The notes beneath the pieces are model-generated. The model saw only the letters and a program-made list of their open reading frames with translations. It was not told where the DNA came from and searched no databases. A stretch of 64,000 nucleotides of DNA from Kineosporia succinea (lineage in GTDB: Bacteria > Actinomycetota > Actinomycetes > Actinomycetales > Kineosporiaceae): NCBI RefSeq assembly GCF_030811555.1, contig NZ_JAUSQZ010000001.1, positions 1,612,001 to 1,676,000 on the forward strand, given 5' to 3'. The position numbers and the translations under genes were made by a program. Positions 21,060-43,140 of this stretch are shown here, one piece after another (the first letter of the stretch is position 1; each line of letters opens with the position of its first letter).

Positions 21060-21914
21060 CTACTTCGGCAGCCACAGGGCCAGGACCTCGGACGGTTCCC
21101 AGCCGGGCAGCGTGGTGTGCGACTGCCGGCACTCGTAGGTGGTGCCGTCGTAGGTGACCGTGTCGCCGCGGTCGTACCAGGTCCAGTCCTTCCAGGCCTG
21201 GCCGTCGGCCGGGGCGGTGGTGCTGGTCTGCGTGGGCTCGGTGGTGCTCGGCGCGGCGCTGGCGGTCGGGGCGGCGGTGGTCGGCGCGGTGGTGGGCTCC
21301 TGGGTGGCCTCGTCGTCGGGCGTCTCGGTCGAGCCCCCCGAGTCGTTGCCGGAGCCGTTGCCCGAGCCCGACCCGTTGCCCGAACCCGAGCCGGTGCCAC
21401 CGATGTTCACGTCCACGCAGTTGTAGAACGCGTTGACCGTGTCGGCGATGTTCCAGACGGCCAGCACGGTGTGCTCGCCGGAGTAGGCCGACAGGTCGAC
21501 GTCGTGCGAGACGGTCGCGCCCGGGATCTTGCCCTTGTCGTCGAACGAGGCGACCTGCTTGCCGTCGACGTAGTAGACCCAGGTGCTGGTGGAGTGCCGC
21601 GCGGTGAGGGTCCAGTTGAAGGTGACCTCACCGTCGACCTTCGCGTGCGGCCAGTTACGCGACTCGTCGTCGAGCTCGCTGAAGCTGGTGTTGCCGCCAC
21701 TGCACTTCTTCGACCCCTTCGGGGCCTCGACGCTCTGCGGCTCGTACTGGATCTGGCCGCAACCGGTGACGCCGCCACTGGCGCACAGGGCCTGCCGGCT
21801 GGGCGGCGAGGAGATGTAGCCGTGGGCACCGGCCGGGCCCGCCAGGGCGACACCGGCGAACAGCGTGCCCATCGTCGCCAGCGGAAGCACGACCTTGCGA
21901 CGGTCTTTCAGCAT
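21060..21914 (-). CDS. Lytic polysaccharide monooxygenase (AA10) with C-terminal CBM5/12
   Basis: 284 residues. The signal peptide should be cut after AGPAGA, leaving His31 as residue 1 (HGYISSPPSR), the first arm of the copper histidine brace. The second is His107 in WTLTARHSTSTWVYYV, and Phe163 in ADTVNAFYNC fills the axial position. A Gly/Ser/Asn then Thr/Pro-rich linker (172-245) leads to a chitin-binding CBM5/12 (WTWYDRGDTVTYDGTTYECRQSHTTLPGWEPS). AA10 enzymes oxidatively cleave chitin or cellulose; the module suggests chitin. It is the first gene of a two-gene unit with the DUF305-like lipoprotein. Confidence 0.93.
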   Translation of the reverse strand: MLKDRRKVVLPLATMGTLFAGVALAGPAGAHGYISSPPSRQALCASGGVTGCGQIQYEPQSVEAPKGSKKCSGGNTSFSELDDESRNWPHAKVDGEVTFNWTLTARHSTSTWVYYVDGKQVASFDDKGKIPGATVSHDVDLSAYSGEHTVLAVWNIADTVNAFYNCVDVNIGGTGSGSGNGSGSGNGSGNDSGGSTETPDDEATQEPTTAPTTAAPTASAAPSTTEPTQTSTTAPADGQAWKDWTWYDRGDTVTYDGTTYECRQSHTTLPGWEPSEVLALWLPK

Positions 21915-22391
21915 GGAACAGCACTCCTGTCAGGGATGGAGTGCCCGGTAGATCGACCGGACGTGACCATAGTTCTCAGTCCGGAGCACCGATCTCAAGT
22001 TGGCAACGGTCATTTAAACGGGCCTTGACCGGGCTATGAGCATCCGCCACCGCTCGTAACAGTTCGTGGCCGGAAAACTGCAACATGTCGTAGGGGCACC
22101 GGCACCCGACGTGATGACCGCCGCCCGGCGCCCCGAATCTCGTTCTCGAGGCAGGTTCTGACACCGGGTAATCCGCCTGGTTACGCGAGAACGGCCGGAA
22201 AGGTTGCCCGGGTCTCCGTGAAATCTTGGTCGGCTCCTCGTCAAGATCCGGGCCGCAAACCAATTCTTGACGCTCTCCGCACCTACTCATGACCGAACTC
22301 CGGGCAACCTTTTCCTTGTTTGACAGCCCATTCCGAGTTCATCAGGATTCACGACGCCGAAACCCCCTGCACGCCGTCGAAAGAGGAATCC
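21915..22391. other. Divergent intergenic region (LPMO / rhamnogalacturonan lyase)
   Basis: 477 bp hold both promoters. A TTGACA (22319-22324) precedes the rightward lyase gene by about 70 nt with only a weak -10. No convincing ORF or palindromic operator was found. The sequence is less GC-rich than the genes, as is usual for promoters here. Confidence 0.4.
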
Positions 22392-24257
22392 GTGAGTCAA
22401 CGACGTCACACCAGCAGGCGCCGCACCGTCGCGGTCGCGGCCGGGATCGCCCTCACCGGCTCCCTCGCCGCGGCGGGAACCAGCTTCGCCGTCGGCCGCA
22501 GCAACGCGACCGGTACGGCCGCGGCGACCACGTCGTCCTCAAGCAGTGCCGTGAAGGCCGCGAAGGTGACCGTCGCCGGGCACCAGCTCGAGACGCTCGG
22601 CCGCGGAGCGGTCAGCGTGCACTCCAGCGCGGGCAACCTGGTGAGCTGGCGGCTGCTGGCCACCGACGCCCAGACCGCCTCGTTCGACGTCTACCGCGAC
22701 GGCACCAAGGTCAAGTCGGGCATCACCGGCTCCACGAACTTTCTCGACAAGGGCGCCGCGGCCACCGCGACGTACACCGTGAAAACCGGCTCGGAGAGCG
22801 CCACCGCGCGCAACCTGACCGACGGTTACCTGCGTGTGCCGCTGAAGAAGCCGGCCGCGGGCAGCGACTACACCTACGCGGCCAACGATGCCTCGGTCGC
22901 CGATCTGGACGGCGACGGCGAGTACGAGATCGTGCTCAAGTGGGACCCGTCCAACGCCAAGGACAACTCGCAGAGCGGCGTCACGGGCAACGTCTACGTC
23001 GACGCGTACGAGCTCGACGGCACCCAGCTGTGGCGCATCGACCTGGGCAAGAACATCCGGGCGGGTGCGCACTACACGCAGTTCCAGGCCTACGACTACG
23101 ACGGTGACGGCAAGGCCGAGGTCGCGATGAAGACGGCCGACGGCACGAAAGACGGCAAGGGCACGGTGATCGGCAGTTCGAGCGCCGACTACCGCAACTC
23201 CAGCGGCTACGTGCTGTCCGGTCCCGAGTACCTCACGATGTTCAACGGCCAGACCGGCGCCGCCGCGTCCACGGTGAACTACCTGCCCGCCCGCGGCACC
23301 GTCTCGAGCTGGGGCGACAGTTACGGCAACCGGGTCGATCGTTTCCTGGCCGGCACCGCGTACCTCAACGGCAGCACGCCCAGCCTGATCGAGGCCCGCG
23401 GCTACTACACCCGCTCGGTCGTGACGGCCTGGGACTACACGGGCGGAAAGCTGACCCAGCGCTGGCAGTTCGACTCCGCCAAGCAGACCACGCCGAGCGA
23501 CTGGGCCGGGCAGGGCAACCACCAGCTCTCGGTCGCCGACGTCGACAGCGACGGCAAGGACGAGATCGTCTACGGTTCGATGGCTCTCGACGACAACGGC
23601 AAGGGCCTGTGGACGACGAAGCTCGGCCACGGCGACGCCCTGCACGTCGGTGACCTGATCCCGTCACGCGCGGGCCTGGAGGTCTACAAGCCGCGCGAGG
23701 AGAAGAACAGCGGCCCGGCCGACTTCATCGCCGACGCGGCCACCGGCAAGATCATCAGCAAGTCGGCCAGCTGCGCCTGCGACACCGGCCGCGGCGTGGC
23801 CGGCGACATCTACGCGGGCAGCCCGGGCGCCGAGCAGTGGTCGTCGAGCGTCGACGGGCTGCGTGACTCCAGCGGCCAGAAGATCGGCAACAAGCCGAGT
23901 TCCACGAACTTCCTGGTCTGGTGGGACGGCGACGCCTCGCGGGAACTGCTCGACTCCAACAAGATCTCGAAGTGGGCGCCCACCGGTGAGACCCGCCTGC
24001 TGACCGCCAGTGGCGTGCACTCGAACAACAGCACGAAGTCCACGCCGTCGCTGTCCGGCGACATCCTGGGAGACTGGCGTGAAGAGGTGATCTGGCCGGA
24101 GTCCGACGACACCGCGCTGCGCATCTACAGCACGCCGATCGAGACCTCGCTGCGCTTCACCACCCTCGTGCACGACTCGCAGTACCGGGTGGCGGTCGCG
24201 TGGCAGAACACGGCGTACAACCAGCCGCCGCACCCGAGTTTCGCGCTGCAGAAGTAG
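22392..24257 (+). CDS. Secreted rhamnogalacturonan lyase (PL11)
   Basis: 621 residues from GTG 22392 (AGAGGA 4 nt upstream). A signal peptide begins with RRHTSRRRTVAVAAGIALTGSLAAAGTSFA, which has a twin-arginine-like start. The mature protein is an eight-bladed propeller of PL11 type: LGRGAVSVHSSAGNLVSWRLLATD, calcium-binding repeats DLDGDGEYEIVLKWDPSN and DVDSDGKDEIVYGS, GHGDALHVGDLIPSRAGLEVY, and the C-terminal GDILGDWREEVIWP...STPIETSLRFTTLVHDSQYRVAVAWQNTAYNQPPHPSF. It cleaves the rhamnose-galacturonate backbone of pectin. The sigma-fusion gene follows 18 nt later. Confidence 0.94.
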   Translation: MSQRRHTSRRRTVAVAAGIALTGSLAAAGTSFAVGRSNATGTAAATTSSSSSAVKAAKVTVAGHQLETLGRGAVSVHSSAGNLVSWRLLATDAQTASFDVYRDGTKVKSGITGSTNFLDKGAAATATYTVKTGSESATARNLTDGYLRVPLKKPAAGSDYTYAANDASVADLDGDGEYEIVLKWDPSNAKDNSQSGVTGNVYVDAYELDGTQLWRIDLGKNIRAGAHYTQFQAYDYDGDGKAEVAMKTADGTKDGKGTVIGSSSADYRNSSGYVLSGPEYLTMFNGQTGAAASTVNYLPARGTVSSWGDSYGNRVDRFLAGTAYLNGSTPSLIEARGYYTRSVVTAWDYTGGKLTQRWQFDSAKQTTPSDWAGQGNHQLSVADVDSDGKDEIVYGSMALDDNGKGLWTTKLGHGDALHVGDLIPSRAGLEVYKPREEKNSGPADFIADAATGKIISKSASCACDTGRGVAGDIYAGSPGAEQWSSSVDGLRDSSGQKIGNKPSSTNFLVWWDGDASRELLDSNKISKWAPTGETRLLTASGVHSNNSTKSTPSLSGDILGDWREEVIWPESDDTALRIYSTPIETSLRFTTLVHDSQYRVAVAWQNTAYNQPPHPSFALQK

Positions 24258-24275: not shown

Positions 24276-25865
24276 ATGCAAGAGGACGAACCGGGCCTGG
24301 TGCGTGAAGCGCGGGCCGGCGATCACGACGCTCTGCGTGAGCTCCTGGCCCGGTACGTTCCCCTGGTCTACAACCTCGCCGGCCGGGCCGTGAGCCACCC
24401 GGCCGCCGTGGACGAGGTCACCCAGCGGGTTCTGCTCGAGGTCGCGCGGGACCTGCCCGGGCCCGGAGAGTTCCGGGCCCGGCTCGTCGAGATCACGGCG
24501 CAGCACATCGACGACCATTTCCGCCGCCCGGCCGGCGGGGCACCCCGGGACGACGAGAACGGCCTCGACTTCGAGGAACTCGCCGTGCTCTGGCTCGATC
24601 TCCGGGGGCAGCACCGCGACCTGGTGCGGGCCGGGCACTGGGTCGACCCGGAACACCGCGCGCTGCTGGCGCTCTGGTGGGAGGAGTGTGCCGGGCGCAT
24701 CACCCGCCGCGAGATCGCCACCGCGCTGGAGCTCGGCGAGGCCGGCACCGCGATGCGCCTGCAGCGCATGCGGGAGCAGCTCGAGCAGTGCCGGCTGGCG
24801 GTCGCCGCGCTCGACCGGCGTCCGCCGTGCGCCGGGCTCTCGGCCGTGGTGGGCGGGTCGGTCGGCTCGAACGGTCGGGACGGTTCGAGCGGCTGGGACG
24901 GCTCGAACGGCCGGGACGGCTCGAACGGCTGGGACGGTGAACCGACCCCGTTGTGGCGTCAGCGGATCACCGAGCACGTGCGCACCTGTGTGGTGTGCCT
25001 GCGGGAGTCCGGCGACCAGCTGCCGGCCCCGCGCCTGATCTCCGGGATGCAGCTGCTGCCGCTGCCCACGGCCCTCATCGCGGCGCTGTCGGCCCAGGGG
25101 CTACTCACGGCCGAGCAGTGGGAGGAGACCGAGCCCACCTCCCCCGAGTCCACCCCCACGACGGACGAGCCCGCCCGCAGCACCTGGCACACCGTGCGGT
25201 GGGCCGGGCGGGTGGCGACGGTGACCACGGCCGCCACGCTGATGCTGTTCGCGGGCGGTTTCGTCTACGACGTCAGTCAGACGCCCCAGATCCGGCACGA
25301 GCGCGACACCTCAGCCCTGAGCGCCTCCCTGGCCAGCCCCGCCCCCTCGGAATCCAGCCCCGGCACCTCGGAAACCGGCCCCGCCCCCTCGGAAACCAGC
25401 CCCGGCACCTCGGACATCAGCCCGGCCACCTCGACCACACCCCCTGAGGCGACCGGACCGGCCGCGTCGACCGACGCGTCCTCAAGCCCCGACTGCACCG
25501 GAAACCCGGGCTACGAAGCCCGCCCCGGCGGCATCGTGTTCGCCACCGCGAACTGCCTGGTCTGGCAGCGGGCCACCGCGGCCAACGCCTACAGCTTCGC
25601 GCACGCCCAGATCTACTGCGCCGGGCTGGATCTCGGCGACCGGACGTGGCGGGTGCCGACCAGGGAGGAAGCAGTCACCCTGATCGGCACCGGCGCGATC
25701 GACACCGCCGCGTTCCCCGACACCCCGGCCGGATCGTTCTGGACATCGACCGCCCACGGCTCGAAACAGGCCCATGCCGTGGACCTTTCCGCCGGTCGGG
25801 AGGAGTCCCCCGCCGACCGGAACAGCAGGTTCGCCGTGCGATGCGTGTCGGGCCGCGCTACTTGA
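24276..25865 (+). CDS. Membrane-tethered sigma factor / zinc anti-sigma / DUF1566 sensor fusion
   Basis: 529 residues in one frame. Residues 8-60 resemble sigma region 2 (AGDHDALRELLARYVPLVYNLAGRAV...VDEVTQRVLLEVARDL) and 125-170 region 4 (RALLALWWEECAGRITRREIATALELGEAGTAMRLQRMREQL). After a tandem linker (197-221) comes EHVRTCVVC, a His-X3-Cys-X2-Cys zinc anti-sigma signature (H234, C238, C241). A membrane helix (about 308-330) and a Ser/Pro/Thr repeat linker lead to an outside DUF1566/Lcl-type domain (411-526) with paired cysteines, NCLVWQR, TWRVPTREEAVTLI and FWTSTA. It is thus sigma, inhibitor and sensor in one chain, 18 nt after a pectin lyase. The sigma part is divergent; ECF group is uncertain. 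Confidence 0.75.
   Translation: MQEDEPGLVREARAGDHDALRELLARYVPLVYNLAGRAVSHPAAVDEVTQRVLLEVARDLPGPGEFRARLVEITAQHIDDHFRRPAGGAPRDDENGLDFEELAVLWLDLRGQHRDLVRAGHWVDPEHRALLALWWEECAGRITRREIATALELGEAGTAMRLQRMREQLEQCRLAVAALDRRPPCAGLSAVVGGSVGSNGRDGSSGWDGSNGRDGSNGWDGEPTPLWRQRITEHVRTCVVCLRESGDQLPAPRLISGMQLLPLPTALIAALSAQGLLTAEQWEETEPTSPESTPTTDEPARSTWHTVRWAGRVATVTTAATLMLFAGGFVYDVSQTPQIRHERDTSALSASLASPAPSESSPGTSETGPAPSETSPGTSDISPATSTTPPEATGPAASTDASSSPDCTGNPGYEARPGGIVFATANCLVWQRATAANAYSFAHAQIYCAGLDLGDRTWRVPTREEAVTLIGTGAIDTAAFPDTPAGSFWTSTAHGSKQAHAVDLSAGREESPADRNSRFAVRCVSGRAT
24864..24935 (+). repeat. 18-bp minisatellite, four copies, in the sigma-fusion gene
   Basis: Four tandem 18-mers encode GSNGRD, GSSGWD, GSNGRD, GSNGWD between the sigma part and the zinc motif. 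Arg and Trp alternate. A second set of imperfect 18-mer repeats (about 25336-25425) encodes the Ser/Pro/Thr linker outside the membrane. Confidence 0.85.
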
Positions 25866-27081
25866 GCCGGACCGGCAGGGTCGAGGAGCTGTTCGAGAAC
25901 AGCGACGGGATCGGCACCAGGTCGTCTTCGTCGACGGCCAGCTCGATGCCGGGGTAGCGGTCGAAAACGGCCGGGATGGCGATGTTTCCCTCCATCCGAC
26001 CCAGGGCCGCCCCCACGCAGATGTGCGGCCCGGCCCCGAAGGCCAGGTTCTTGCGCTGCGTGCGGGTGATGTCGAAGCTCTCGGCGTCGTCGCCGTGCTG
26101 CTTCTTCTCCCGGCCCACGGCACTGTACGGCGCCATGATCGCCTCGCCCTTGGGGATCGTGACCCCGGCGATCACCACGTCCTCCAGCGGGTAGCGGAAC
26201 GGGAAGTTGCCGATCGGGGCGTCCCAGCGAAGGGTCTCCTCGACCACGCCCGCCCAGGTCGAAGCGTCTCCGGTGACGGCGATCTCGCGCTGGTCGGGGT
26301 GGGTGCACAGGGCCCGCACGGCGTTGGTGATCAGGGCGACCGTGGTTTCCTGACCGGCGCCGAGCATGATCAGCAGGGTGCCGACCAGCTCTTCCTCGCT
26401 GACCGACTCCGGGTCTTCCTCGTGCGCCGCGATCAGGGCGCTGGTGAGGTCGGGGCCCGGGTTGTCGCGGCGGTACTGCACCTGGTTGGCCAGCAACTGG
26501 TAGAGGCCCATCTGGTTGGCCAGGACCTCCTCCGGGGTGAGGTCGGACCGGAAGACGTTGTCCATGAACGCCTTCAGATCGGCCCGGGACTCCTCGGGCA
26601 GGCCCAGCAGCTCGCTGATGACCAGCACCGGCACCACGTCGGAGTAGTACTTGCGGAAGTCGACCACCCCGTCGGAGTCGGCGTGGCCGGGCAACGCGTC
26701 GAGCAGTTCACCGACGATCTGCTCCACCCGGGGACGCAGCGCCTCGACCCGGCGCGGCGTCAGGGTGCCGGTGACGAGCCGGCGCAGGCGGCGGTGCTCC
26801 GAACCGTCGGCGGTGAGCATGTTCGTCACCTTGACCATGCCGATGAGCGGCCAGTCGTCACCCACGTGGCCCGACTTGATGTCGTTCCAGTTCTGCCAGT
26901 TCTTGCTCATGCGCGGGTCGTTGACCAGCTCGTTGAGCAGCGCGTGGTCGGTGATGCTCCAGGCGGTCACGTCACCGGGGAGCTTGACCCGGACCACCGG
27001 GCCGAGCTCGCGCAGCCGAGCGGCCTCGCCCTGGTGGTCACGTCCGGCCGGATCTAGTTCGACGAGAGGGGTTTCGGACAC
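25858..27081 (-). CDS. Cytochrome P450, CYP154-like, conservon-associated
   Basis: 407 residues, a soluble bacterial P450. The I-helix reads LIMLGAGQETTVALI, the K-helix ETLRWDAPIGNFPFRY (ExxR intact) and the haem loop FGAGPHICVGAALGRME with the Cys ligand. N-terminal LDPAGRDHQGEAARLRELGPVVRVKLPGDVTAWSITDH and C-terminal SLFSNSSSTLPVRL are typical of CYP154. It lies at the 3' end of the cvnABCD-P450 cluster, 114 nt after the CYP157-like gene. CYP154 and CYP157 are known as a pair in Streptomyces conservons. Substrate unknown. Its stop region overlaps the convergent sigma-fusion gene by 8 nt. Confidence 0.9.
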   Translation of the reverse strand: MSETPLVELDPAGRDHQGEAARLRELGPVVRVKLPGDVTAWSITDHALLNELVNDPRMSKNWQNWNDIKSGHVGDDWPLIGMVKVTNMLTADGSEHRRLRRLVTGTLTPRRVEALRPRVEQIVGELLDALPGHADSDGVVDFRKYYSDVVPVLVISELLGLPEESRADLKAFMDNVFRSDLTPEEVLANQMGLYQLLANQVQYRRDNPGPDLTSALIAAHEEDPESVSEEELVGTLLIMLGAGQETTVALITNAVRALCTHPDQREIAVTGDASTWAGVVEETLRWDAPIGNFPFRYPLEDVVIAGVTIPKGEAIMAPYSAVGREKKQHGDDAESFDITRTQRKNLAFGAGPHICVGAALGRMEGNIAIPAVFDRYPGIELAVDEDDLVPIPSLFSNSSSTLPVRLK

Positions 27082-27195
27082 AACGGCCTCCTGGCAGGGG
27101 GATCTTCTGTGAGGGTCAGGCTCTTCCGTGAGACTGATCAGGGGCTTCGGTTCTGACTTGTGGGGTTCCGGACGCGGGGACCGGCCTTCGGGGAG

Positions 27196-28461
27196 TCAGG
27201 CGCGGGTCTCGGGGGTGGCCGGCTCGACCGTGGAGAACTCGACCGGCAGCGCCGTCGGCACCCGGGTCCAGGGCGAGGGGAACCAGGTCAGGTCCTCGGC
27301 GGGCACGCTCAGGCGCAGGTCGGGCAGCAGGTTCAGCACGGTGCCGACCGCGGTGCGCACGATCACCCGGGCGGGCACCCGGGCCGGGCAGGAGTGCGGC
27401 CCGGCGGCGAAGGCCAGGTGCGCGCGGTTGCCCGGCTCGGCGATCGGCCCGTTGCCGGTCTGCATCATCGGGTCGTCGACCACGGCGCCCAGCCCCAGCA
27501 CCAGCACGTCGCCCTTGCGGATCTTCTGGCCGCCGAGCTCGGTGTCCTGCAACGCGTACCGGGCCGGCATGACGTTCATCGGGGGTTCGCGCCACAGCGC
27601 CTCGTCGAGGGCGTCGTCCACGCCGAGGCTGCCCCCGCGCAGCTGCCCGGAGAACCGCGGGTCGGTCATCAGGAGCCGCAGCGTGTGCGCGATCCACGAG
27701 GTCATCGTCTCGTTGCCGGCGCCGATCAACGGCACCAGCGTCTGCACCCGCTCCTCGAGGCTGTTCAGCGACTCGTGGCGCACGATCACACTGGTGACGT
27801 CCTTGCGGCCGCCGTCGTGCTCGCGGCTGAGCACCAGGTCGACCAGGATCTGGTCGAACGCGCGGTCACCGGCCTGCGAGTTCTCCTGGCTGCCGAACAG
27901 CGCGATCAGGGCGCGGCGCAGCTCCTGGCCGCCCTCGCGGTCCAGCCCGAACAGGCTGGCGAGGGCGAGAGTGGGGATCACCTGGGCGTACTCGGCGATC
28001 AGGTCGGCGCTCCCGCGCCCGGAGAAGGCGGCGATCAGGTCGGTGCAGATCTCCTCGATCTCGCGGCGCACGGCCCGCTGGTCGATGCCGGCGATCGCCT
28101 CGTCGACCGGGCGGCGCAGGCGGCGGTGCTCCTCGCCGTCGGCCTGGAAGACGTTGGGGCGCCAGCCCATCATCGGCAGCAGACCCGAGTCGGGCGCCAC
28201 CAGGCCGTCGTTCAGGTCACGCCAGTTGCGGGCGTCGTGGCCGAAGAGCCGCTCGTCACGCGTGACGCTCAGCAGCTCGCGGTAGCCCATCACCAGCCAG
28301 GCCTCCACGCCCGGCTCGAGCTCGACCTTGACCACGGGACCGTGGTTCTCGCGCAGCTCCCGGAAGACCACCCGGTGGTCGGGGGCGCCGGTGGCGTCGA
28401 TGAGGGGCATGCCCGCGTGGCTCTGGTGGGCCGGGCAGCCCGGGGGCGGGGTCTGGGTCAC
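27196..28461 (-). CDS. Cytochrome P450, CYP157-like, without canonical ExxR
   Basis: 421 residues. The I-helix VPLIGAGNETMTSWI and haem loop FAAGPHSCPARVPARVIVRT (Cys present) show a P450. The K-helix that should hold ExxR reads ALDEALWREPP: at residues 286-290 it is DEALW, so Leu/Trp stand where the Arg should be. CYP157C1 of Streptomyces has EQSLW at this place, so this is the same natural deviation. The ATG overlaps the stop of the GTPase gene by 4 nt, joining it to the conservon. It may be an atypical P450, or a regulatory partner of the CYP154-like protein (inference). Confidence 0.88.
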   Translation of the reverse strand: MTQTPPPGCPAHQSHAGMPLIDATGAPDHRVVFRELRENHGPVVKVELEPGVEAWLVMGYRELLSVTRDERLFGHDARNWRDLNDGLVAPDSGLLPMMGWRPNVFQADGEEHRRLRRPVDEAIAGIDQRAVRREIEEICTDLIAAFSGRGSADLIAEYAQVIPTLALASLFGLDREGGQELRRALIALFGSQENSQAGDRAFDQILVDLVLSREHDGGRKDVTSVIVRHESLNSLEERVQTLVPLIGAGNETMTSWIAHTLRLLMTDPRFSGQLRGGSLGVDDALDEALWREPPMNVMPARYALQDTELGGQKIRKGDVLVLGLGAVVDDPMMQTGNGPIAEPGNRAHLAFAAGPHSCPARVPARVIVRTAVGTVLNLLPDLRLSVPAEDLTWFPSPWTRVPTALPVEFSTVEPATPETRA

Positions 28462-29078
28462 GAGGCGAACTCCCGGTGCGAACGCGGGTCGTGGTGGGCG
28501 ACGTACTCGACCAGGGCGAGCAGGGCGTTGGCGGACGACTTCCGCTGCCGTGCGTCGAAGTCGACGATCGGGGTGTCGGGCAGCAGGTCGAGTGCGCCGC
28601 GCACCTCCTCGAGCCCGACGTCGGGGCTGTCGGGGAACCGGTTGACCGCCACCGCGAACGGCAGGTCGCGTTCCTCGAGCTGCTCCAGCACGTCGAAACT
28701 CTGCTCCAGGCGCCGCAGGTCGACCAGCACCAGCACGCCGATCGCGCCGACGGCCAGGTCGGTCCAGAGGTCCCAGAACCGGCGCTGGCCGGGCGCGCCG
28801 AACAGGTAGAGCACCAGCTCGGAGTTGATCGTGATCCGGCCGAAGTCCATCGCCACGGTGGTGGTGCGCTTGTCGCTGTTGCGGCTCAGTTCGTCCACAC
28901 CGACGCTGGCCTCGGTCATCACCTCCTCGGTGCGCAGCGGGGTGATCTCGCTGACCGAGCCGACGAGGGTGGTCTTGCCGACACCGAACGCGCCGACGAC
29001 CAGGATCTTGGCCGAGCGGGTGACCGTGTCGGGGAGGTAGACGGGAGTTGGACGGTCAGCGGATCCCGCGGAGTCCAT
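28458..29078 (-). CDS. cvnD: Conservon GTPase CvnD (MglA-like small GTPase)
   Basis: 206 residues. G1 P-loop is VGAFGVGKTTLVGSVSEI, the switch-II/G3 region YLFGAPGQRRFWDLW (Gln in place of the usual D-x-x-G), and G4 is AVNRFPD instead of NKxD, all typical of conservon GTPases. It overlaps cvnC upstream by 23 nt and the P450 gene downstream by 4 nt. CvnA-D are proposed to form a membrane-associated complex resembling eukaryotic G-protein coupling, which senses unknown signals in Streptomyces. Confidence 0.9.
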   Translation of the reverse strand: MDSAGSADRPTPVYLPDTVTRSAKILVVGAFGVGKTTLVGSVSEITPLRTEEVMTEASVGVDELSRNSDKRTTTVAMDFGRITINSELVLYLFGAPGQRRFWDLWTDLAVGAIGVLVLVDLRRLEQSFDVLEQLEERDLPFAVAVNRFPDSPDVGLEEVRGALDLLPDTPIVDFDARQRKSSANALLALVEYVAHHDPRSHREFAS

Positions 29079-29424
29079 GCAGCACCTCCTGCAGGAGCTG
29101 GGAGTCGGGGGCGGCCTGCTTGGGCGTACCCGAGCGGGCCGTGAGGTAGCCGGCGTCGATCAGGTCGGAGGCGAGCACTCCGACCAGGCTCACCGGCAGG
29201 TCGAGATGGGCCGAGGCCTCGGCCAGGGAGAGCAGGTGGGCGCACATGGCCACCAGCGCGCGTTCTTCCCGGGTGGCCGTGACCGGCAGTTCCCGGGTGG
29301 CGTCGGGAGCGATCAGCAGGGTCTCCACCCCGACCGTGTTACGGCTGGCCCGGGCCCGGCCGCGGGTGATGACGTAAGGGCGCAGGGCCCGCGCCGAGAA
29401 GTCTGGTTCCCCAGACCTCGTCAC
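29056..29424 (-). CDS. cvnC: Conservon protein CvnC (DUF742)
   Basis: 122 residues matching DUF742: LRPYVITRGRARASRNTVGVETLL, then a helical/winged part with CAHLLSLAEASAHLDLPVSLVGVLASDLIDAGYLTAR. Its start overlaps the stop of cvnB by 4 nt. The domain looks like a small winged helix and is thought to take part in the conservon complex. Confidence 0.9.
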   Translation of the reverse strand: MTRSGEPDFSARALRPYVITRGRARASRNTVGVETLLIAPDATRELPVTATREERALVAMCAHLLSLAEASAHLDLPVSLVGVLASDLIDAGYLTARSGTPKQAAPDSQLLQEVLHGLRGIR

Positions 29425-29837
29425 TGGACAGGGTCCTGCCGGGCCGGACTGCTGAGGTTGGCGGCGCCGATCTTCAGCACCTGGGCCTGCATCGCGCGCG
29501 CCACCTGACGGGGGTCGACCACGGGGTCGGCGACGACGGCCAGGTGGGCACCGTCGGCGCTGCGCAGGAACAGGAAACCGCCGTCGAACTCGATCATCTG
29601 GTGCCGCACGGCACCGTCGCCGGTGCCGAACTCCTGCCCCAGGGCGCGCCCCAGGGACTGCAGTCCGGAGCAGGTGGCGGCGAGCCGTTCGGCGCGGTCG
29701 CGGCCGAGGCCGGGCGAGCCGGCCAGGAGCAGTCCGTCAACACTGAAGACGACGACGTCGCGGACGCCGGGAACGACGCTCACCTCGGCGATCATCCAGC
29801 CCCGGTCGTGCTGGCCGTTGTTCTGCGAGTCGCTCAT
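29421..29837 (-). CDS. cvnB: Conservon roadblock/LC7 protein CvnB
   Basis: 138 residues of the roadblock/LC7 family: MIAEVSVVPGVRDVVVFSVDGLLLAGSPGLGRDRAERLAATCSGLQSLGRALGQEF, then GGFLFLRSADGAHLAVVADPVVDPRQVARAMQ. Such proteins act as GTPase regulators or activators (MglB type) for CvnD. It overlaps the neighbouring cvnA and cvnC by 4 nt at each end. Confidence 0.92.
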   Translation of the reverse strand: MSDSQNNGQHDRGWMIAEVSVVPGVRDVVVFSVDGLLLAGSPGLGRDRAERLAATCSGLQSLGRALGQEFGTGDGAVRHQMIEFDGGFLFLRSADGAHLAVVADPVVDPRQVARAMQAQVLKIGAANLSSPARQDPVQ

Positions 29838-42967: not shown

Positions 42968-43019
42968 CCTCCTGGCGCCGTCTTGTCGCGTTCCGGGTAC
43001 GGCACCCCTCGTCCGGGGG
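42968..43019 (-). ncRNA. Guanidine-III (ykkC-III) riboswitch
   Basis: On the minus strand, 43016 to 42975 carries CCGGACGAGG, then GCCGTACCCGG, then GACAAGACGGCGCC, in the order and spacing of the ykkC-III class known from actinobacteria. GGUGCCGU and ACGGCGCC can form the 8-bp pseudoknot helix (one G-U). The 3' strand of this helix directly touches the AGGAGG SD of the SMR gene (42968-42973), so ligand binding could control translation. The match is from memory of the family. Confidence 0.85.
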
Positions 43020-43140
43020 CCGCGTCGCAGCGACCCTGCTCCGAGGGTGGCAAATCCGGGGCCGGTTGTCCAGCGCCCGTTCCGCCCGCCGCAGTGCGCT
43101 TTTCGTCCCGGAGACTCCCCGGCAGCGCTGCCCGGCAGCA

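Follow-up and report, generated by a model that had tools for sequence, protein, structure and literature searches.

The locus and its conservation in Kineosporia

The stretch of DNA that was analysed, hereafter the window, comprises 64,000 nt of the 8.07 Mb genome of Kineosporia succinea and contains the gene for a protein in which an ECF sigma domain, a zinc anti-sigma (ZAS) module, a likely membrane helix, a linker and an Lcl_C (DUF1566) domain lie on one chain (Table 1). The frame of this fusion opens with an ATG immediately preceded by AAGGA and is intact over all 529 codons. As the initial annotation had stated, the gene follows a rhamnogalacturonan lyase gene (RGL11) after 18 nt and has a chitin-type LPMO gene, with LPMO_10 and CBM_5_12 domains, nearby. 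For RGL11, the listed open reading frame begins at 22320, which falls within a promoter, and GTG at 22392 is the likelier start.

We compared six Kineosporia genomes, namely that of the window (G000) and five relatives (G001-G005). An orthologue of the fusion is present in all five relatives, and the check proposed in the initial annotation, on whether fusion and lyase stay together in related genomes, gave a clear result: the pair is kept in 6/6, with gaps of 9, 9, 18, 20, 20 and 21 nt when the first ATG is assumed. The conserved block consists in every genome of the divergent LPMO gene, RGL11, the fusion gene and then, on the opposite strand, two P450 genes and a GTPase gene. A scan of genome contigs with short exact patterns matched Kineosporia mesophila as the sole relative, which does not imply absence elsewhere. 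The fusions of the relatives have 647-667 residues and two Lcl_C stretches apiece (n=5). The minus strand at 25858-29837 of the window, which holds the two P450 genes, the GTPase gene and two small genes and is also kept in 6/6 genomes, resembles a conservon.

Table 1. Features of the fusion gene and its surroundings (window coordinates)
Feature	Coordinates	Strand	Basis and remarks
Secreted LPMO (LPMO_10 + CBM_5_12), divergent from RGL11	21060..21914	-	Pfam; kept in 6/6 genomes
Inverted pair AAAGGTTGCCC (22199-22209) and GGGCAACCTTT (22302-22312), LPMO-RGL11 intergenic	22199..22312	.	Both arms in 6/6 genomes
Housekeeping-type promoter TTGACA-N18-AGGATT before RGL11	22320..22349	+	Counterparts in 6/6 genomes
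RGL11 rhamnogalacturonan lyase, same operon as fusion	22392..24257	+	Pfam RGL11_C, E 1.4e-231; start from crude gene calls
ECF sigma–ZAS–membrane helix–linker–Lcl_C fusion, 529 aa (P0001)	24276..25865	+	Open frame; Pfam, NCBIfam TIGR02937
Sigma region 2, residues 8-84	24297..24527	+	Pfam Sigma70_r2, TIGR02937, confident AlphaFold helices
Codon 69, Arg (Trp in 20/20 other aligned members)	24480..24482	+	Alignment; 3-residue deletion just before
Sigma region 4-like segment, residues ~112-171	24609..24788	+	TIGR02937, AlphaFold helices
Zinc anti-sigma module (C185, H234, C238, C241)	24828..24998	+	Ligands invariant in 21/21
Gly-rich insert between C185 and H234 (24 residues, ~193-216)	24852..24923	+	Without counterpart in five orthologues
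Membrane helix, residues 305-331	25188..25268	+	Kyte-Doolittle, AlphaFold
Ser/Pro/Thr-rich linker	25269..25505	+	Sequence; AlphaFold confidence low
Lcl_C (DUF1566) domain, residues 423-524	25542..25847	+	Pfam; sole one in window genome

Domain architecture and topology

The sigma region 2- and 4-like segments claimed by the initial annotation were recovered by NCBIfam TIGR02937 (residues 18-171, E 1.2e-5) and, for region 2, by Pfam Sigma70_r2 (residues 23-84, E 3e-4). Both matches lie under the curated cut-offs in the window copy; the five orthologues exceed the Pfam cut-off, with E values from 7.7e-12 to 2.1e-14. A separate Pfam region 4 match was lacking in the window copy at the thresholds used, and AlphaFold predicts confident helices for sigma region 2, sigma region 4 and the ZAS module. 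Possession of sigma regions 2 and 4 only places the fusion among ECF factors. When the whole protein was searched by sequence against solved structures, weak matches alone were returned (E 0.05 or worse).

A ZAS module has four ligands, of which the last three take the form H-x3-C-x2-C. The HVRTCVVC motif named in the initial annotation does lie at residues 234-241, and C185, which was overlooked there, is the fourth ligand. As all four are unchanged across 21/21 aligned family members, the fusion is predicted to carry a complete ZAS module. Between the first Cys and the His there are 48 residues in the window copy versus 24 in one orthologue (L031; C200, H225).

A membrane helix had been placed at about residues 308-330, which agrees with an AlphaFold helix at 305-326, of low confidence, and with a Kyte-Doolittle peak of 1.58 at 313-331 (1.57-2.06 in the five orthologues). 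A second hydrophobic stretch at residues ~254-272 scores 1.56 in the window copy and 1.9-2.2 in the orthologues; with two membrane helices, Lcl_C would be cytoplasmic. We prefer a single helix with Lcl_C outside, because AlphaFold breaks this stretch into two short helices (251-258 and 265-273) and because outer domains across the family look like secreted domains. Domain matches, orthologues and AlphaFold agree on the plan first proposed, in which one chain joins a sigma factor, a zinc anti-sigma motif, a membrane tether and an outside domain, which we read as carbohydrate-binding in type.

The assignment of this outer part to DUF1566 was secure, with a Pfam PF07603 match at E 8.2e-17 and 62 bits against a cut-off of 34.9. 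The window copy gave no usable AlphaFold model of the domain (pLDDT <50 over nearly all of residues 372-529), and its fold was for that reason taken from orthologue L031, one Lcl_C domain of which was modelled with a mean pLDDT of 82.2 from 11 sequences. The best solved match of this model in Foldseek was the C-terminal domain of Legionella Lcl (PDB 8Q4E; E 4.3e-3, TM 0.60, 23% identity), followed by C-type lectins; at a threshold of 0.001 the search returned no match. Sequence comparison gave weak matches: the tandem Lcl_C region found solved structures at E 0.22 or worse, Lcl not among them, and the Lcl_C profile matched 8q4e weakly (E 0.75). Legionella Lcl, which shares the Pfam domain, differs in being a secreted adhesin that forms trimers and is carried on a collagen stalk; its domain trimer binds sulphated glycosaminoglycans, and the account of this structure suggests that DUF1566 domains may act in carbohydrate recognition (PMC11162425). 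By analogy, Lcl_C of the fusion would be of carbohydrate-binding type.

Among the matches listed, Lcl_C occurs in 4/149 genomes of the order, all of them Kineosporia (G002 and G004 are unlisted, yet carry the domain), and in 13/396 genomes of the phylum. The sigma profile of the fusion family found its own locus at E 7.2e-84, as a positive control, and had no match at 24 Lcl_C loci of 12 other genomes, although other kinds of sigma factor would escape it. In this survey the Lcl_C version of a one-chain ECF was thus found only in Kineosporia, in 6/6 genomes, and it appears to be new.

Outer domains and neighbouring enzymes across the family

A profile of the sigma, ZAS and membrane parts detected 20 full-length fusions in the six Kineosporia genomes (E 1.3e-105 or better), two of them, with an outer beta-helix and an outer AbfB domain, being further members in the window genome. 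A partial copy at a contig edge (G003:C16:116-379, E 2e-16) and a weaker fifth match in a genome of another genus (G083) were kept outside this set. By BLAST, the C-terminal parts of the 20 fall into four classes of six, six, four and four members, and a polysaccharide-degrading enzyme adjoins every one (20/20), its kind being predicted by the class of the outside domain. This is a raw count, taken with no background of enzyme density, and it corresponds to about four ancestral pairings (four to six when the other genus is included) and not to independent events.

Members of the Lcl_C class lie downstream of RGL11 in 6/6 cases. In the beta-helix class, whose G000 member is Pel9A-like by Pfam, 6/6 fusions are transcribed divergently from a pectinesterase/pectate lyase (PL1) gene; these enzymes were identified by Pfam in G000 and G001 and by BLAST at 75-82% identity elsewhere. 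All four fusions of the AbfB class, named from Pfam on the G000 member, are divergent from GH10/GH62 genes (Pfam). In the fourth class, a PF05426 lyase, identified by Pfam in G003 and G004 and by BLAST at the remaining loci, adjoins 4/4 fusions; three pairs are tail to tail and one is divergent. The one member scanned (L018) had no Pfam match in its outer domain. At loci L252, L255, L257 and L039 this unnamed domain, with its PF05426 lyase in 4/4, is a candidate new glycan-binding domain. The pairing of an outside domain with a neighbouring polysaccharide enzyme, in four sensor classes, is new.

Similar arrangements are found in G083, which belongs to another genus of the family, where enzymes adjoin 3/4 strong fusions. 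A beta-helix fusion of this genome adjoins two GDSL/CBM2 esterases; the fourth fusion (L246) lies on a short contig piece, and the single neighbour scanned there had no Pfam enzyme match. At L248:5949-13869 an RGL11+CBM2 gene is flanked by two one-chain ECF genes, one of which encodes an outer AbfB domain with a weak GH32 match and the other an outer domain of the beta-helix class. Other families of the class have CAP, AbfB, glycosyl hydrolase core and beta-helix among their outer domains. Streptomyces-like genomes (e.g. L100, L126) have the same ECF family with an outer CAP domain and different neighbourhoods; an inspection of gene starts alone showed no enzyme next to these CAP-type fusions, two of which were assigned by Pfam and the others by eye.

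ZAS modules can serve as redox switches, a capacity that would suit a protein whose Lcl_C is a surface adhesin or oligomerisation module and not a sensor, and whose sigma domain responds to some other signal, for instance stress in the envelope or the redox state of the zinc site. The trimeric adhesive domain of Legionella Lcl (PMC11162425) is a precedent on the same side. An envelope or redox signal would not, however, require the class of the outer domain to track the enzyme, as it does in four classes, and we regard this explanation as very unlikely.

Promoters and DNA elements

All promoter patterns reported here were picked after inspection of alignments. A spacing of 16 nt is that of ECF promoters, and it recurs at two of the enzyme classes. 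In the beta-helix class, GTTAT-N16-CGACTAC is directed towards the enzyme in 6/6 loci; the six whole genomes contain seven copies versus two in a reversed control, six being those at beta-helix loci and the seventh lying in G002, 74 nt before another pectinesterase. In the AbfB class, GTTAT-N16-[TG]GGTCG points towards the enzyme in 4/4 loci and towards the ECF gene in 3/4, and the longer form TTGTTAT-N16-KGGTCG occurs six times genus-wide (control 0), always at AbfB loci; the genomes with a copy are precisely the four that possess such a locus. Both classes seem to have near-private ECF-type promoters before their enzymes. The PF05426 lyases are preceded, by eye, by GTCAT with GTCG 16-18 nt on in 3/4 loci, and by GTAAT in G004. 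On the LPMO side of the intergenic region, GT[TC]AC-N16-TCA is visible by eye in 6/6 genomes, a pattern to which we give no weight.

Evidence at RGL11 is less complete. TTTACGTTAT stands upstream of the gene in 5/5 relatives (G001-G005) and is lacking in the window genome; genus-wide it occurs seven times versus two in the control, five copies being those upstream of RGL11 and two being without a recognised gene. It is a candidate ECF-type -35 element, for which no conserved -10 partner was found at RGL11. All six genomes have TTTGACA or GTTGACA with AGGATT before RGL11, and the window operon is probably run by this housekeeping-type promoter.

The arms of the inverted pair in the LPMO-RGL11 intergenic region are 92-104 nt apart across the six genomes. 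The related pattern GGCAACCTTT has 80 sites in these genomes versus 12 in the reversed control, 69 of them outside crudely called genes, and by eye many have GAC[CT] 17 nt after AACC. Copies of GGGCAACCTTT in G000 precede PL3, PL9-like and GH5-CBM2 genes, and another neighbours an M6 peptidase gene. At RGL11, GGGCAACCTTT lacks its GAC[CT] partner. We rejected GGGCAACCTTT as a target of the fusion, given that genus-wide copies with GAC[CT] precede, in one case, the gene of a soluble ECF sigma factor; we read it as the -35 element of such another, soluble sigma factor or as a binding site. The GGCAACCTTT/GGGCAACCTTT sites possibly mark a second, wider regulon of secreted enzymes. A riboswitch reading of the GGGCAACCTTT motif was also discarded, as an Rfam gathering search of the window and nine loci had no match there; its sole riboswitch match was a guanidine-III riboswitch at 42972-43036 on the minus strand (63.1 bits against a cut-off of 36).

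These elements have to be weighed against the possibility that the neighbours are linked by synteny only, with RGL11 and the LPMO gene under the housekeeping-type promoter and a factor at GGGCAACCTTT, while the fusion acts on distant genes. The whole block is syntenic within the genus, the TTGACA/AGGATT promoter and the inverted GGGCAACCTTT pair are kept in 6/6 genomes, and GGGCAACCTTT also precedes the PL3, PL9-like and GH5 genes of G000, all of which such an account would accommodate. It would leave unexplained the matched sensors and enzymes at three other loci, the RGL11 gene that two fusions flank in another genus and the near-private promoters, and we therefore judge it improbable. Pairing and promoters instead support polysaccharide sensing with local control, as far as can be read from sequence.

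Relation to known systems and proposed mechanism

The claim that some actinobacterial ECF groups fuse the sigma factor to a zinc anti-sigma motif and membrane domains was correct: such proteins are published as ECF52 and ECF53, one-chain ECFs with a zinc finger, a membrane helix and a carbohydrate-type outer domain (PMC8999054, PMC5826349, PMC10766802). By these descriptions, the fusion follows the same plan, in which an actinobacterial sigma factor is extended at its C-terminus by a zinc finger, one or two membrane helices and a carbohydrate-type outer domain. The suggestion that the pairing with DUF1566 may be undescribed holds in part, in that we found no paper describing this fusion, but its general one-chain plan had already been published in ECF52/53. 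A search for ECF sigma factors with DUF1566 gave one unrelated Leptospira paper alone, subscription surveys that define the groups being outside its reach; sigma factors fused to DUF1566 gave none, and Kineosporia sigma factors none on topic by title or abstract.

The closest described relatives differ in their outer domains. In ECF52, SCO4117 of Streptomyces coelicolor is likewise actinobacterial and has the ECF domain, zinc-finger anti-sigma, membrane helix, proline-rich stretch and outer carbohydrate-type domain; that domain is, unlike Lcl_C, of NPCBM type, and the protein is reported to act on development and antibiotics, the passages on it mentioning no neighbouring enzyme (PMC5826349). 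ECF53, with WP_030276194.1 as reference member (PMC8999054), combines a fused anti-sigma part with one or two membrane helices and, in some members, glycosyl hydrolase or carbohydrate-binding domains, but the passages that describe it name no DUF1566 member (PMC8999054, PMC10766802). Both likenesses are by description only. The signals of such one-chain sigma factors are presented in these sources as computational predictions without experimental validation (PMC8999054, PMC10766802).

Two further systems share the logic. In Sigma-I/RsgI of Clostridium thermocellum, an outside polysaccharide-binding domain and a membrane helix are described as controlling matching plant-wall enzymes (PMC10766802, PMC12203970), whereas that system comprises two proteins, with another sigma class and anti-sigma fold, in Firmicutes. 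IutY of Pseudomonas putida (ECF243) is, as described, a one-chain sigma factor with a fused membrane anti-sigma part that is activated by proteolysis (PMC8999054); it differs in responding to an iron-siderophore signal through an outer-membrane receptor and in having no outer lectin-type domain.

We propose that the outside domain binds a plant polysaccharide or fragments of it and that the one membrane helix would carry the signal inward. The grip of the ZAS module on the sigma domain would thereby be loosened, most likely by proteolysis, by analogy with IutY and with proposals for SCO4117, and the released sigma domain would transcribe the adjoining enzyme gene and often its own gene too. 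Release by proteolysis and a pectin-derived ligand, both named in the initial annotation, have the standing of hypotheses in this scheme. For the family as a whole, this course from glycan sensing through sigma release to transcription of the linked enzyme is likely, given the pairing rule and the private promoters. In the Lcl_C class, the rhamnogalacturonan locus would be served, meaning RGL11 and probably the LPMO gene; here the promoter is incomplete, and the mechanism has only slightly the better of the argument. If correct, the proposal would make these proteins one-protein counterparts of the clostridial sigma-I/RsgI sensors, and the tandem Lcl_C a candidate rhamnogalacturonan receptor. 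Since outer domain, neighbouring enzyme and near-private promoter coincide in several classes, ligand, promoter and target become testable.

More tentatively, and on balance just short of what we would call probable, Kineosporia may have a set of private lines, in which a swappable outer domain (Lcl_C pair, pectate-lyase-like beta-helix, AbfB or the unnamed domain) is joined to a promoter of its own and each switch drives little besides itself and the enzyme for the polymer that its outer domain binds. The promoters would share a -35 core, GTTAT or GTCAT, at a spacing of 16 from class-specific -10 elements (CGACTAC, GGTCG). The line of the window would, on the same tentative footing, be in the course of dismantling, with sensor, sigma domain and promoter element lost together and the lyase staying under its housekeeping-type promoter.

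The derived state of the window copy

The window copy departs from its relatives in several respects. It has one Lcl_C only, versus two in each of the five relatives, and in its FRSWL motif Trp is replaced by Arg, with three residues missing upstream of the motif. This position, 69, we take to be the conserved Trp of sigma region 2.3, so that the window copy lacks a residue expected of an ECF factor. The single Lcl_C, the Arg and the Gly-rich insert had all escaped the initial annotation.

Rates of substitution point in the same direction. Pairwise dN/dS of the fusion is 0.43-0.58 for the window copy (five pairs) versus 0.25-0.37 among relatives (nine pairs), with 0.14 for the close pair G003-G005. 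Neighbouring genes of the window genome have no such rise; RGL11, for instance, gives 0.20-0.29 in window pairs and 0.19-0.33 in other pairs, the close pair excluded. When window pairs were compared with relatives part by part, the largest change was in Lcl_C (identity 0.46 vs 0.73, dN/dS 0.68 vs 0.30) and a moderate one in sigma region 2 (identity 0.66 vs 0.76, dN/dS 0.37 vs 0.31); region 4 gave a dN/dS of 0.30 vs 0.19, and the ZAS and membrane parts are no faster in the window copy than in the relatives.

A plain pseudogene is argued against by dN/dS below 1, the open frame and the retained ZAS ligands. The same retention, with the membrane helix added, dN/dS below 1 in every domain measured and ZAS and membrane parts that evolve no faster than those of relatives could be expected of a working, specialised variant, in which loss of Trp69, a single Lcl_C and the loop insert retune promoter and ligand. 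Such a variant is unlikely, though somewhat less so than linkage by synteny alone: it has Arg at a site that is Trp in 20/20 others, its Lcl_C part has the greatest rise in dN/dS, and the whole window genome has no TTTACGTTAT and no recognised substitute element.

We favour, with some reserve, the reading that the window copy is a derived, weakened or uncoupled switch. In the window species, a single Lcl_C, the replaced Trp, an enlarged ZAS loop and the disappearance of TTTACGTTAT would have left the operon to its housekeeping-type promoter. The combined account, namely that the family consists of membrane-tethered one-chain ECF glycan switches, that the Lcl_C class serves the RGL11 locus and that the window copy is weakened or uncoupled, is one to which we give the same qualified preference. 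The window copy, having lost features kept by its relatives, represents the working system poorly, and it may illustrate how switches of this kind disappear in nature.

The Gly-rich insert of the window copy has a weak Pfam Collagen match, under the cut-off. We ruled it out as a counterpart of the Lcl stalk, since it is flanked by ZAS ligands, sits on the same side of the membrane helix as the sigma domain and is missing from the five orthologues. Among the six orthologues, the window copy alone has this Gly-rich repeat in the ZAS loop, apparently expanded from a conserved WDG stretch.
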